This document shows, piece after piece, positions 496 to 5,132 of a stretch of 50,000 nt of DNA. The DNA comes from an uncultured Desulfobacteraceae bacterium (GTDB lineage Bacteria; Desulfobacterota; Desulfobacteria; Desulfobacterales; UBA5852): the NCBI GenBank assembly GCA_913060875.1, contig CAJXSL010000023.1, positions 1 to 50,000 of the forward strand, written 5' to 3'. The translations under genes were made by a program, and so were the position numbers. Numbering within the stretch: the stretch's first letter is position 1; each line of letters begins with the position of its first letter. Under the pieces are notes generated by a model. That model saw only the letters and a list, made by a program, of their open reading frames with translations. It was not told the DNA's origin and made no database searches.

Positions 496-2325
496 TCAGG
501 CCAGGCCCAGCGCGGCCAGGCGTTCCGCGGTGGGGACGCCGTCGGGGGTCCAGCCCTGGACCTCGTAATACTCGTCCAGCATCTCCTCCAGGTGGCAGAC
601 CATCCCCGCGGCCGGGCCGGTGGGCATGGGCTCATGGGTCAGGCGCCGGGGCAGGGTGTCGTCCTTGCGGGAGATCCCTGTCCGGACCAGGAACTGGCGC
701 TCGGCCGTGATGATCCGCTCGCTGGCCTGCATGAGTTCTTCCAGGGTATAATTCGCGCCGGTAGCGGCATTGAGATATTCCAGGATGCCGTCGGGGTGCA
801 CGTCCAGGGTCTTGCCCGCCAGGTTGCGCACCGCGAAGAAGATACAAAGGCCGGCCGCATCGATGGCTGCGGAAAGATCCTGGTAGGCCTTGGTGATCTT
901 GGCCTTGCCTTTCCACTCATGGGGATCGACTTTTTCAGGCACGCCGAAAAGCTCGAAATACGCCGGATCCCCGCGCATGTGCGAACCGCCAATTGGGGAC
1001 GTGGCGTAGGCCAGACCCATGGCCTGGGCCCCGCGGGGCTCGTAGCCCGGGAACTCCTGCTTCTTGGCCACCATGGCCAGCTCCGGGTGACCGCTGCTCT
1101 CCGCCAGGCGGTAACTGCCTTCGGCCAGGCGATTGCCGAACCCTTCCCGATAGCCTGTCTGGCGGGTCAACTCCACCAGGGCCTCAGCGTCACCCCACGG
1201 AAGAGGACGACCGACTACTTTTTCGGAAAGATAGCCCCGGTCCACCAGTTCCATGGCGCAAGCCACGGTGGCCCCCATGGTGATGGTATCCAGCCCCAGT
1301 TCGTTGCACAGATAGTTGGCCTTGATGATGGCCGCCAGATTGTCGATCATGCAGTTGGCGCCCATGGCATAGATGGTTTCGTACTCCGGCCCCTCCCCTT
1401 CGCCGGCAAAATCCGGATCTTCCACCCGGGTCTTGCGGCCGCAACCGATGGGGCAGGCATAGCAGGCTTTGTTGCTAACCAGGTATTTTTCGGTCAGCCG
1501 CTCGCCATGAATGTTTTCCCAGCCGTCGAAAGTGCCCTGCTGCCAGTTTTTAGTGGGCAGGACCCCCAGGTGCTGGGTGGTGAGCACGACACCGGCCGTG
1601 CCGTTGACGGTGAGCCCCAGCGGTGTTTCCTTGGCCGCCGCTTTGAACGTGTCCAGAATCTGGGTATTGAAGGCTTTGAACCGTTCCGGATCGGCCAATT
1701 CAACCCGCTGCTGCCCCCTGACCACCACGGCTTTGAGGTTTTTGCTGCCCATGACCGCCCCGACGCCGGAACGGCCGGCAGCCCGATCCTTGTCGTTCAT
1801 GATGGCCGCAAACCGCACCAATTTCTCCCCTGCCGGCCCGATGCAGGCCACCCGGGCCTTGGGGTCGGTTTCACCCCTCAAGCGGTCGGTGGCTTCATGG
1901 GTGGTTTGGCCCCAGAGGTGGTCCGCCTCCCTCAGTTCGACCCGGCCATCGTGGATATAGAGATAGACCGGATGATCCGCACGGCCTGTTAGAATGATCC
2001 CATCGTAGCCGCTGCGTTTGAGTTCGGTGGGAAACCGCCCCCCGGAATTGGAGCAGGTGATGGCCCCGGTCAGAGGGGACTTGGTCATGACCATGTAGCG
2101 GGCGCCGGTGGGGGCTCCCGTTCCGGTTAGCGGCCCCGTGGCCATGACCAGCAGGTTTTCCGGAGCCAACGGATCGCAGGCCGGGTCGAGTTCGCGGTTC
2201 AGGTAGTAAATGCCGATACCGCGACCGCCGATGTAGTCCCTGGCCGCAACCGGGTCCAGGATCTCGTCGCGAAGCACCCCGGACGTAAGATCGACCCGAA
2301 GTATCTTGCCCATCCATCCTTTCAT
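496..2325 (-). CDS. aor: Tungsten-containing aldehyde:ferredoxin oxidoreductase family protein
   Basis: A 609-residue protein with the full AOR layout. The N-terminal pterin-binding domain starts GKILRVDLTSG and contains the family stretches RDYIGGRG, ATGPLTG and SNSGGRFPTELK. The C-terminal domains carry the [4Fe-4S] ligands. The cysteines at residues 288, 291, 295 and 493 sit almost exactly where Pyrococcus furiosus AOR has its cluster ligands. The family oxidises aldehydes to carboxylic acids with ferredoxin as acceptor in the cytoplasm, and some members run in reverse on acids. The substrate cannot be read from the sequence. The start is set by GAGAGGAGA seven bases or so before the ATG. 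It is followed closely by the MoaD-like gene, as the first gene of a two-gene unit. There is no fused electron-transfer subunit. Confidence 0.93.
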   Translation of the reverse strand: MKGWMGKILRVDLTSGVLRDEILDPVAARDYIGGRGIGIYYLNRELDPACDPLAPENLLVMATGPLTGTGAPTGARYMVMTKSPLTGAITCSNSGGRFPTELKRSGYDGIILTGRADHPVYLYIHDGRVELREADHLWGQTTHEATDRLRGETDPKARVACIGPAGEKLVRFAAIMNDKDRAAGRSGVGAVMGSKNLKAVVVRGQQRVELADPERFKAFNTQILDTFKAAAKETPLGLTVNGTAGVVLTTQHLGVLPTKNWQQGTFDGWENIHGERLTEKYLVSNKACYACPIGCGRKTRVEDPDFAGEGEGPEYETIYAMGANCMIDNLAAIIKANYLCNELGLDTITMGATVACAMELVDRGYLSEKVVGRPLPWGDAEALVELTRQTGYREGFGNRLAEGSYRLAESSGHPELAMVAKKQEFPGYEPRGAQAMGLAYATSPIGGSHMRGDPAYFELFGVPEKVDPHEWKGKAKITKAYQDLSAAIDAAGLCIFFAVRNLAGKTLDVHPDGILEYLNAATGANYTLEELMQASERIITAERQFLVRTGISRKDDTLPRRLTHEPMPTGPAAGMVCHLEEMLDEYYEVQGWTPDGVPTAERLAALGLA

Positions 2326-2604: not shown

Positions 2605-3891
2605 CTACAGCAGGACCTGCCCCAGGCGGTCGACCAGCAGGTCCGCATCGTCATCGGTGATGTTGAGCGGCGGCGACACGCGAATGGTGTGCCCGTGACT
2701 GTCGTTGATGATGAGCCCCAGCTTGACCAGCTGGCGGCAGAAATCCATGGCGTTGCGCTCTTTGACTTCAATGCCGATGAACAACCCCTTGCCCCGCACT
2801 TCCTTGACGTGCGGCGAACGATCGGCCAGGTCCTCGATGGCCTTTTTGAGCCGGGCTCCCTGGCGCGCCGAGGCTTCCGCCAGCTTTTCTTCTTCGATCA
2901 CATCCAGCGCCGTCACCCCGGCCACGCAGGCCAGGGGGTAGCCACCGAAGGTGGAGCCGTCCGAGCCCACGTTGAAGGCCATATCCATCAGTTTGGTATT
3001 GGTGACGAACACGGACAGGGGCACCAACCCCCCGGATAGAGCTTTTCCCAGCACCAGGCCGTCGGGGACCACGTCTTCATGCTGGAAGCAGAAGCGTTTG
3101 CCGGCGCGCCCTAAACCCACCTGGATCTCGTCGAACATCAGCAGCAGGTCGTGGTGGTCGGCAATGGCGCGCAGTCCCTTGAGGAATCCCTGCGGCGGCA
3201 CCTGCATGCCCCCTTCCCCCTGCATGGGTTCCACGAGGATGCCGCAGGTGTTGGGGGTGATAGCCGCTTCCACCGCATCGAGGTTGCCGAATTCCACCGA
3301 AACAAAGCCGGGGGTCAACGGACCGAAGCCGCGGCGGTATTTTTCCGACGAGGAAAACGAAACCACCGTAATCATGCGGCCGTGAAAATTCCGGTCGAAT
3401 ACGATGATTTCCTGCTTGCCGTCCGGTATGCCTTTGGCCTTCCATCCGTAATAGCGGGCCATCTTGATGGCCGTCTCCACCGATTCGACACCACCGTTCT
3501 TGGGCAGCACCTTGTTGCCTTCGGCGCCGAAACGCGTCCCCAGCTGGGGCACGAACGACGCCATGCGGGACAAAAAGAGGCCCAGCGGGTCGGTATAGAC
3601 CACATTGGAAATCACCGAGCCGTAGTCCCCCAGAAGGGCTTTGATCATGGCATTGACGATTTTGGGATGATGATGTCCCGGGTTGGCGGCGGAATAGGCC
3701 GCCAGGCAGTCCAGATAGCGCTTTCCGTTGACATCCGTGATCCAGCTTCCACGGGCCTGGCGCACCACGACGTCCAGGCGTTCATAGTGATGGGCGCCGT
3801 ATTTTTCCTCCAGGGCCCGGATGGTGTCGTCCGGCGAATTGGAAAATCCGAAGACCGGCGTTTGATTCAAAGAGGTAAGTGTGGACAGCAT
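2605..3891 (-). CDS. rocD: Ornithine--oxo-acid aminotransferase (class III PLP aminotransferase)
   Basis: A 428-residue class III aminotransferase. The N-terminal pattern RYLDCLAAYSAANPGHHHPK is close to ornithine delta-aminotransferases. Visible active-site elements are NFHGR (167-171), LVEPMQGEGG (219-228), DEIQVGLGR with the cofactor-binding Asp254, and LGKALSGG, in which Lys283 should form the Schiff base with pyridoxal phosphate. The expected reaction is ornithine plus 2-oxoglutarate to glutamate semialdehyde plus glutamate, in the cytoplasm. Length is normal for the family. GGGAGG precedes the ATG. The gene is divergent from a TrmB-like regulator 450 bases away, and its promoter carries a strong palindrome, so it is likely regulated. 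Acetylornithine or another omega-amino acid transaminase specificity remains possible. Confidence 0.85.
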   Translation of the reverse strand: MLSTLTSLNQTPVFGFSNSPDDTIRALEEKYGAHHYERLDVVVRQARGSWITDVNGKRYLDCLAAYSAANPGHHHPKIVNAMIKALLGDYGSVISNVVYTDPLGLFLSRMASFVPQLGTRFGAEGNKVLPKNGGVESVETAIKMARYYGWKAKGIPDGKQEIIVFDRNFHGRMITVVSFSSSEKYRRGFGPLTPGFVSVEFGNLDAVEAAITPNTCGILVEPMQGEGGMQVPPQGFLKGLRAIADHHDLLLMFDEIQVGLGRAGKRFCFQHEDVVPDGLVLGKALSGGLVPLSVFVTNTKLMDMAFNVGSDGSTFGGYPLACVAGVTALDVIEEEKLAEASARQGARLKKAIEDLADRSPHVKEVRGKGLFIGIEVKERNAMDFCRQLVKLGLIINDSHGHTIRVSPPLNITDDDADLLVDRLGQVLL

Positions 3892-3907
3892 GATGGCCTC
3901 CCTGGTA

Positions 3908-3935
3908 TAATGTTGCTATCTTTGTAGCAACATTA
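3908..3935. promoter_or_regulatory. Palindromic operator-like site at the rocD transcription start
   Basis: TAATGTTGCTA (3908-3918) and TAGCAACATTA (3925-3935) are perfect 11-base inverted arms around a 6-base spacer. The site overlaps the edge of the predicted -10 and the start point of rocD, the classic position for a repressor operator. The divergent TrmB-like protein is the obvious candidate to bind here, but this is inferred from position only. I see no second copy of the palindrome in the window. Confidence 0.65.
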
Positions 3936-3962
3936 ATATCATCATTCATGAGGCATTGTCAA
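3933..3962 (-). promoter_or_regulatory. Sigma-70-type promoter of rocD
   Basis: Read on the minus strand, a consensus -35 TTGACA (3957-3962) is followed after 18 bases by TATTAA (3933-3938), a good -10. Transcription would start near 3925-3928, about 35 bases before the rocD ATG. The start region falls inside the adjacent palindrome. Confidence 0.7.
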
Positions 3963-4343
3963 TCCAGGGAAGAACAAGCCGTCCGCTACCGCCACGGGAT
4001 CGTATTGACCTTTATGCCGCCCTTTTTTATGATAATTTATTCTGTCCAGAAACCTGGTCCTCTGGGCCAGGTCAGAGATAATTGGCTCCGCCGTAATCGT
4101 CGTATAGGAATTCAGGCATCGGAATCCAGAAGTCAGAATAAGGTTTTCGCCTTCGGCTCTTTCGATCTTTTTCAAAAGACGGAGCGAAGCGACATCAAAA
4201 TCCTTCTGGCTCCTGAATTCTGTCTTCTGACGCCTATTGTTTCTCGTGATTGGAGCATCCCCCCTTCCAGGGGGAACCCAAAGCCTGGTCCTCCGGGCCC
4301 GGATATATACTAAGGCTTTTATACGCACCCGGAAAAAACAACC
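3963..4343. other. Intergenic region upstream of the TrmB-like gene: repeats, no gene
   Basis: No convincing coding frame. Two near-identical 16-base direct repeats, CCTGGTCCTCTGGGCC (4053-4068) and CCTGGTCCTCCGGGCC (4284-4299), differ at one position. The second ends six bases before TATACT (4306-4311), a possible -10 for the regulator gene, so it covers the place where a -35 would be. Between them, about 4109-4222, is a loose inverted structure bounded by GAATTCAGG and CCTGAATTC, with GAAGTCAGA-type words repeated in both arms. It resembles dispersed intergenic repeats. A weakly open plus-strand frame (3948-4313) has no ribosome site or family resemblance. Confidence 0.5.
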
Positions 4344-5132
4344 ATGGACATCACCAGCCTGCTCACCGATTTTGCCTTCTCCAAATACGAATCGTCCTGC
4401 TACCTCGCCCTGCTCTCCCAGCATCCCTGCAACGGCTCCCAACTGAGCAGACTGTCCGGGATCGCCCGCTCGCGGATCTACGACGTGCTGCGCAGCCTGT
4501 CCCGCAAGGGTGTCGTCTTCGAAATCGAAAAGGGCCTGTTCGTGCCCCTGCCTTTCGAAGAGCTCAAAAAACGCCTTCAAAACCAGTTCGAATCCAACCT
4601 GAGCCTGCTTGAGAGACAGGTGGCGGAGCTCAATCCGGACACGGACTACGAATATCTTCTGACCCTCCGCGGCCGTACGGAGGCCATGGCCAAAGCTGTC
4701 GACATCATCGAGGGCGCCCGGGAGGAAATTTATCTGCGCCTCTTTCCGGACAGTTGGAAACGACTGGAAAAGCCGATCCGGAATGCCGTTCAACGGGGTG
4801 TCGGCCTGCGCTTGATCGGGATGGGGCCGATACCGCGCATCTGCGACATCCAGGTGACCCATCCGGAGGTGGCCACGCTGCCAACGAAACTCGGGGGGGA
4901 ATCCATCGACATTATCGTGGATCGATCGGAAGCTCTGGTGGGGATCTTTGAATTAGGCCAGGAAGAGACCTCGCCGGTCATCTGGACCCGAAACCGTTGG
5001 TTCGTCATCGCCAACCGGGACAGTCTCCGGCATGATTTCTACCATTATTTCCTGGACAAAATCCACGACCGCCAGGAAACGCTCACGCCGCAGGACGAAG
5101 CGATATATGCGTTTATCAAGAAGGATGATTAG
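4344..5132 (+). CDS. TrmB-family transcriptional regulator
   Basis: A 262-residue protein. Residues 1-70 form a winged helix-turn-helix (FAFSKYESSCYLALLSQHP, then SQLSRLSGIARSRIYDVLRSLSRKGVV), the TrmB/sugar-specific regulator pattern. A short coiled-coil linker (FEELKKRLQNQFESNLSLLERQV) follows. The C-terminal half resembles the phospholipase-D-like effector domain of TrmB proteins (ARGIDIIEGAREEIYLRLFP-type region near 115-130). TrmB proteins are mostly known from archaea and some bacteria, where they sense sugars or other small molecules. Here the divergent neighbour is rocD, with a strong palindrome at its start, so local control of ornithine catabolism is a reasonable inference. The effector is unknown. 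The ATG has only a weak GGA-type ribosome site. Confidence 0.8.
   Translation: MDITSLLTDFAFSKYESSCYLALLSQHPCNGSQLSRLSGIARSRIYDVLRSLSRKGVVFEIEKGLFVPLPFEELKKRLQNQFESNLSLLERQVAELNPDTDYEYLLTLRGRTEAMAKAVDIIEGAREEIYLRLFPDSWKRLEKPIRNAVQRGVGLRLIGMGPIPRICDIQVTHPEVATLPTKLGGESIDIIVDRSEALVGIFELGQEETSPVIWTRNRWFVIANRDSLRHDFYHYFLDKIHDRQETLTPQDEAIYAFIKKDD

Follow-up and report, generated by a model that had tools for sequence, protein, structure and literature searches.

We found that a perfect palindrome over the predicted start of an ornithine-aminotransferase-like gene is, as judged by comparison among relatives, a conserved operator, and that the TrmB-like regulator encoded next door very probably docks there. 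The DNA analyzed (the window) is a 50,000-nucleotide stretch from an uncultured Desulfobacteraceae bacterium. We consider it likely that the palindrome serves as the operator of this divergently encoded protein, acting as a repressor of dibasic amino-acid catabolism (we infer the binding, the repression, and the effector). Comparative evidence strongly supports the pairing of this protein with the site, repression is the probable direction of control given the position of the site, and an amino-acid effector is only suggested by the gene context.

The palindromic site and its conservation

The palindrome (3908-3935) is 28 nt in length and consists of two 11-bp arms, TAATGTTGCTA (3908-3918) and TAGCAACATTA (3925-3935), separated by the 6-nt spacer TCTTTG. 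It contains a 24-bp core, ATGTTGCTA-N6-TAGCAACAT (3910-3933), which has 18 of 18 fixed positions in the window and for which a frequency matrix was derived from 60 loci. On the minus strand lies the presumed target gene, encoding a class-III aminotransferase of 428 aa that resembles ornithine aminotransferase (2605-3891; PF00202; called rocD here), and downstream of it is a gene for an aldehyde:ferredoxin oxidoreductase (AOR; 496-2325, minus strand; PF01314/PF02730) that is probably in the same operon. The proposed repressor, a TrmB-like protein of 262 aa, is encoded on the plus strand (4344-5132).

The predicted rocD promoter comprises a -35 box, TTGACA (3957-3962, minus strand), whose spacing from the site is kept in relatives, and a -10 box, TATTAA (3933-3938, minus strand), with 18 nt between them. 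The palindrome shares the last three bases of the -10 box and extends from there to approximately +18 relative to the predicted start point; it ends 16 nt from the rocD ATG (3891), and a likely ribosome-binding site, GGGAGG (3897-3902, minus strand), is located in the interval. Direct reading of the sequence confirmed the preliminary description of perfect 11-base arms combined with TTGACA-N18-TATTAA over the start of the gene. Our promoter scan reported a variant with 16-nt spacing (TTGACA, GATATT) because it demands T as the sixth -10 base, and our inverted-repeat scan missed the palindrome because it requires arms of at least 12 bases.

When the whole 5.88-Mb genome was scanned with up to three mismatches, the palindrome gave a single match whether queried as the 28-mer (22 fixed bases) or as the 24-mer core (18 fixed bases), and neither scan revealed further targets in this genome; a backward-read control for the 24-mer also gave one chance match. 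Uniqueness in the genome and retention in relatives confirm that the palindrome is beyond chance.

The stretch between the operator and the regulator gene contains a 141-nt interspersed repeat (4105-4245). It has 36 matches in the genome, 28 of which (itself included) are near full length with 85-100% identity, and it is absent from the equivalent place in the sister genome G001.

We gathered relatives of the regulator from 291 genomes of the class and from named genome records (the best 80 of 104 relatives). The regulator search matched 78 of the class genomes, and we compared 32 class loci (four earlier ones and 28 new ones among 30 loci). In 31 of the 32, a site matching ATGTTGCTA-N6-TAGCAACAT at 16-18 of 18 positions was located ahead of the rocD-like gene, or ahead of the regulator where both genes are in line. 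A second set comprised 60 linked loci (59 named loci from the best 80 of 104 relatives, plus the window) in which no more than 3 kb separates rocD from the regulator; the arrangement is divergent in 14 and regulator-then-rocD in 46. All 60 had a best site of 15-18 of 18, a score of at least 15 being reached by only 2 of 1,200 shuffles of these regions (first-order Markov samples). Eight core positions (GTTG at 3-6, T8, G18, C19, and C22) were invariant in all 60 loci. The two sets are not independent: several loci of the two collections are one contig under two labels (L115=L198, L116=L201, L117=L202, L103=L192, L107=L193, L101=L187, L104=L195, L109=L203), and G-numbered loci of the 32-locus set also reappear in the named-record set.

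Sites on the rocD side of the 60 linked loci (the best 80 of 104 relatives plus the window) spanned 14-18 of 18. For L126 and L128, the best site was taken from the whole intergenic stretch: L126 scored 15 on both the rocD and the regulator sides, and L128 scored 14 on the rocD side and 16 on the regulator side. Four of the 14 divergent loci (L125, L126, L128, and L130) had a second site at the regulator end; we found none near the regulator's own start in the window, which we count against our preferred explanation. An exact TTGACA was present 17-24 nt ahead of the operator in 57 of the 60 loci, most often at 18 nt (36 loci) or 19 nt (11 loci), compared with an expected 0.4 of 60 at that distance in shuffled upstream stretches.

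We then searched the 291 class genomes for the exact core GTTGCTA-N6-TAGCAAC. It was present in 43 genomes, every one of which had a regulator match, and in none of the 213 genomes that had no such match; the backward-read control pattern was present in 16 genomes, of which 11 had no regulator match. At a threshold of E <= 1e-150, 55 genomes contained a rocD orthologue, 40 with a regulator orthologue and 15 without one. The exact core was found in 39 of the 40, and the fortieth (G216) carried a one-base variant; it was found in none of the 15. These counts include three genomes with a damaged gene: G290, with a broken regulator (among the 40); G068, with a stop in rocD; and G149, with the regulator in two pieces (among the 43). 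Within 900 nt ahead of rocD, 12 of the 15 scored 10-12 of 18, which is the shuffle background. Because the core accompanied 39 of 40 rocD orthologues with a regulator and 0 of 15 without, 12 of the latter being at background, the presence of the site tracks the regulator and not rocD as such. The expectation that rocD promoters keeping the regulator would also keep the palindrome was thus borne out when the check was run.

The other three of the 15 are diverged cases: L253 has a 26% identical regulator homologue adjoining rocD, L254 has a 45% identical homologue on the same contig and a site of 14 of 18, and L257 has an HTH fragment adjoining rocD and a site of 15 of 18 with 13-bp arms. In L253 (2761-5009) and L257 (2095-3718; the fragment is 115 aa), strongly diverged TrmB-like proteins and diverged palindromes stand beside rocD orthologues, a possible case of co-evolution of operator and regulator. 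In the one exception among the 32 class loci (G121), the regulator is unlinked from rocD, adjoins a gene of the ornithine-cyclodeaminase family, and has no site of its own; the only exact core is on another contig, ahead of rocD and behind a TTGACA box.

Genes behind the site and the nature of the effector

A quick tree of the regulators, in which 30 of the 91 inner branches were drawn open (support under 80), contained a rocD clade of 70 rows (clade A), a clade of 17 rows (clade B), and an azlCD outgroup of four, and left three rows unplaced (L187, L102, and L193). The neighbours in clade B are LKR/saccharopine dehydrogenase (SDH) genes, methyltransferases, transporters, and pyl genes. Within clade A, L143 has LKR/SDH, and L142 and L135 have another aminotransferase. 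The outgroup loci (L111-L114) encode distant TrmB-like paralogues (~30% identity) in line with azlC-azlD branched-chain amino-acid transport genes; ahead of azlC in these four loci, the best match to the operator dyad was 6-8 of 10, which gives no hint of the operator in this branch.

To follow the site beyond rocD, we counted the dyad TGTTG-N12-CAACA over 45 loci, which were chosen by hand and include some duplicates. The exact dyad with a spacer of 12 occurred 25 times, and each of eight other spacers between 8 and 16 gave 0-2 occurrences. Matches at nine of ten positions numbered 26 at spacer 12 versus 10-25 at other spacers and are meaningful by position only. With the same TTGACA spacing, the dyad was found ahead of genes for an AOR, for LKR/saccharopine dehydrogenase, and for another aminotransferase, and also ahead of methyltransferase operons that adjoin tRNA-Pyl. 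Exact dyads stood before SDH-LKR (L108 and L115), regulator-LKR-SDH (L143), an aminotransferase (L187), and regulator-aminotransferase (L142), and in L190 a site of 18 of 18 preceded a run of saccharopine dehydrogenase, LKR, MTTB, MtbB, and the regulator. The spread of the dyad is limited, and we count this against our preferred explanation: of the 17 clade-B loci, only 8 (L105, L108, L190, L192, L198, L199, L200, and L201) had the exact form ahead of the regulator or of genes beside it, as did two of the three unplaced loci (L102 and L187).

Four exact cores were found away from both regulator and rocD. Two are in G227, each behind a TTGACA box: one is ahead of an AOR gene whose product is 74% identical to the window AOR, and the other is ahead of an amino-acid ABC operon, the binding protein of which scored best, below the cut-off, as a lysine/arginine/ornithine type. 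The target of the latter core is not certain, because the operon diverges from a phosphoesterase gene. The remaining two may be chance matches, about two of which are predicted in 43 genomes by the backward control; the core in G156 has no clear gene behind it. The core in G220 (L120, 1869-1932) is ahead of an NhaC-type antiporter gene and has no TTGACA box.

The name rocD, used in the preliminary description, is not secure. The closest solved chain to the 428-aa enzyme is the ornithine aminotransferase 3ruy, but the enzyme fell below both NCBIfam cut-offs for this activity (TIGR01885, 374 versus 378.4 bits; NF003145, 419 versus 656 bits), and a paralogue elsewhere in the genome (C1:1101101) passed TIGR01885 (558 versus 378.4 bits) and scored 590 versus 656 bits for NF003145. 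The AOR gene is also beside rocD in L124/L089, L127, L132, and (on the opposite strand) L168, and stands alone behind its own operator in L121. That one regulatory slot can hold rocD, another class-III aminotransferase, or LKR/SDH suggests a common class of substrate or product, namely lysine, ornithine, or their semialdehydes, and AOR could oxidize the semialdehydes.

It is quite possible, though short of probable, that lysine or alpha-aminoadipate semialdehyde is the signal for the regulator and that "rocD" is a lysine 6-aminotransferase, whose product would be that of the LKR/saccharopine dehydrogenase pair, a reading that overlaps with our preferred one. The human counterparts of the SDH and LKR proteins are the two domains of alpha-aminoadipic semialdehyde synthase (AASS), the partner of the AOR orthologue is rocD in some genomes but SDH-LKR in G101, and the OAT scores of the window enzyme and its paralogue point the same way. 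Against this reading, the closest solved relatives are ornithine aminotransferases, the SDH-LKR-AOR genes of G101 adjoin D-ornithine aminomutase, and the unlinked regulator of G121 has an ornithine-cyclodeaminase-family gene as its neighbour. For dibasic amino-acid control in general, saccharopine and ornithine clusters both occur with these genes, so the effector may belong to either the lysine or the ornithine side. An earlier proposal of an amino acid or polyamine effector in place of a sugar fared unevenly: an amino acid is suggested by the genes behind the operator and by the absence of the sugar subdomain (below), and polyamines found no support.

Three further observations concern the LKR-type genes. 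In the G101 run (L236, 2642-11077), SDH-LKR-AOR is located between D-ornithine aminomutase (D-ornithine 4,5-aminomutase) OraE (1289 bits; cut-off 800) and a GlmL/Or-4-like gene (572 bits; cut-off 600). The LKR-like gene of the window's own genome (C11, 41% identity) has no nine-of-ten dyad within its 14-kb stretch. The closer LKR type (at least 63% identity) occurs in 14 genomes, which do not overlap with the 55 rocD-orthologue genomes, although an overlap of only two or three would be expected.

In some loci, the operator lies near pyrrolysine genes. We detected tRNA-Pyl in five of the seven loci scanned, and the dyad was located 98-104 nt from it in L115, L116, L243 (nine of ten), and L244, with none in L197. 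These dyads occupy the divergent region ahead of the methyltransferase/SDH operon. In L115, pylB, pylC, pylD, and the small PylS subunit (confirmed by NCBIfam) adjoin the regulator. No dyad was found ahead of pylB in the selected loci, only partial matches inside pylB itself, and it is by its position beside tRNA-Pyl that the operator appears linked to pyl.

Trimethylamine/dimethylamine methyltransferase genes are in or beside LKR/saccharopine dehydrogenase operons in L106 (3586-4569 and 3085-3519), L104, L190, and L242-L244; an in-frame TAG was read directly in the L106 methyltransferase gene. Such operons also contain a non-TAG MTTB homologue, and those of L200 and L192 include an amino-acid ABC importer as well. 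Speculatively, they might form a route for methylated lysine.

A broader picture can be offered tentatively, as one we would not expect to hold in full. This Desulfobacterota branch of the "sugar" TrmB family might have turned to sensing dibasic amino acids or their shared semialdehyde or cyclic-imine products (pyrroline-5-carboxylate, piperideine-6-carboxylate), with one operator kept and the enzyme behind it swapped: an OAT-like aminotransferase in some cases, another class-III aminotransferase or the saccharopine pair in others. In pyrrolysine users, it might also act through a shared divergent promoter region to control a methylamine methyltransferase operon with embedded lysine-catabolic genes and, perhaps, tRNA-Pyl and pyl genes.

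Proposed repression and its alternatives

We propose that a dimer of the TrmB-like protein would bind the two ATGTTGCTA half-sites through its winged helix-turn-helix (wHTH) domains. Bound across the -10 box and the start point, the dimer would block RNA polymerase at the aminotransferase-AOR promoter. A small molecule of dibasic amino-acid breakdown (lysine, ornithine, or a derived semialdehyde or cyclic imine) would then bind the phospholipase-D (PLD)-like C-terminal domain and release the protein. In most relatives, where the regulator precedes the aminotransferase in one operon behind the site, the protein would also repress its own synthesis. The preliminary description had this protein repressing rocD; the site is indeed kept with the regulator and lies over -10/+1, and repression is the likely consequence because the left half-site contains or abuts the -10 box, so that a bound dimer would exclude RNA polymerase.

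The protein might alternatively bind the site as an activator or need a bound amino acid (co-repressor logic), which we consider unlikely. TrmB-family members can act as repressors, activators, or both (PMC4158304). An activator is at odds with the position of the site, which starts 18-19 nt after a TTGACA-type -35 box in 48 of the 60 linked loci and thus sits on the -10 box. Activators of TTGACA-type promoters normally bind at or upstream of -35.

Operation of the palindrome by a different, unlinked transcription factor, with the TrmB-like gene a neighbour by chance, is very unlikely. The separation of regulator and target in G121 shows that the two are not always adjacent, but the exact core is missing from all 213 genomes without a regulator match and from all 15 rocD orthologues without a regulator orthologue, and in the 46 operon-type loci the regulator gene itself has the site ahead of it.

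It is still less probable that the inverted repeat is an RNA hairpin of the 5' leader (an attenuator, stability, or translation element). A hairpin of 8-11 bp can form in the window leader, but the left arm in those same 48 loci starts in the -10 region and would be untranscribed there, and the site is also found ahead of genes of quite different type. We rejected an RNA element, as the Rfam search of the window site gave no match up to E 1 and leader folding was unremarkable (z-scores of only -0.6 and -1.9).

The regulator and known TrmB proteins

The proposed repressor matches the TrmB DNA-binding profile PF01978 (56.2 bits versus a cut-off of 25.6; residues 8-63) and, weakly, PF11495 (profile positions 3-137 of 233 only). 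It missed the NCBIfam equivalog cut-offs for TrmB/TrmBL1 (50.2 versus 650, 46 versus 500, and 43.5 versus 600 bits) and for TrmBL2 (28.1 versus 530 bits). Residues Y46 and D47 are invariant in 23 aligned homologues and align with the DNA-contacting Tyr-Asp pair in the recognition helix of TrmB (Y50/D51). An AlphaFold model (mean pLDDT 89, pTM 0.62) had TrmBL2 and TrmB as its best folds (VIA fit: 3qph, Z 14.8, rmsd 4.7 over 227; 2f5t, Z 15.4, rmsd 2.0 over 126). For the C-terminal domain, the fit was to TrmB's first effector subdomain and to the phospholipase-D fold. The chain ends at the residue aligned to TrmB 262, and the second effector subdomain is absent, along with Asn305, Gly320, Met321, Val324, Ile325, and Glu326. 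In the portion of PMC4158304 available, this subdomain of Pyrococcus TrmB is described as holding six of the seven sugar contacts. As modelled, the regulator has the TrmB fold without the sugar-binding subdomain, and the invariant polar residues D193, E196, R225, D226, H230, and D231 are a candidate ligand site. That this is an ordinary sugar-sensing TrmB that happens to control an amino-acid gene is therefore scarcely credible, despite its Pfam matches, given the loss of the subdomain that carries these contacts.

The recognition helix is mostly ARSR in clade A and mostly PRAR in clade B, and the inner half-site letters of clade B are often GTTGTC or GTTGTA. Covariation of helix and operator is not strict, because L190 pairs a PRAR helix with a clade-A site.

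TrmB of Pyrococcus furiosus and Thermococcus litoralis is a sugar-responsive repressor of the trehalose/maltose operon. The window regulator shares with it a wHTH domain with the Tyr-Asp pair, a coiled-coil helix, a PLD-like first effector subdomain, and a palindromic promoter operator. Unlike TrmB, it lacks the second subdomain carrying the sugar contacts, is associated with a bacterial sigma-70-type promoter and amino-acid catabolic targets, and has an operator of the form ATGTTGCTA-N6-TAGCAACAT in place of TACT-N3-AGTA. The chromatin-type TrmBL2 of Thermococcales is similar in length (264 aa) and domain content and was the top Foldseek match, with a whole-chain TM of only 0.37, perhaps reflecting a different domain setting. 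TrmBL2 is reported, in the available part of PMC4158304, to bind coding and intergenic DNA broadly, whereas here there is a single highly specific site in the genome.

Two other TrmB-type proteins serve non-sugar roles, as we propose here: a Haloferax protein is described as a thiol-based regulator with a single wHTH domain (PMC9426492), and MreA of Methanosarcina is given as 139 aa (PMC4158304, Table 1). We take the Haloferax thiol regulator to be OxsR. No link of either protein to this operator or to lysine/ornithine genes was seen in the accessible portions of these sources, and at the level of titles and abstract openings we found no description of this TrmB-like operator/amino-acid system in the literature.

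A local repressor with a palindromic operator is ordinary in kind; the family and the regulon are what is unusual. Archaeal sugar sensing is what TrmB regulators are best known for, and a bacterial gene of this kind inherits the Pfam label "sugar-specific". A bacterial branch without the sugar subdomain, with a sharp operator and a putative amino-acid regulon, makes the effector directly testable, and the defined operator is a pattern that can be searched for elsewhere. In sulfate reducers, such a branch would link a regulator with lysine/ornithine breakdown and, by neighbourhood, with pyrrolysine-methylamine clusters.
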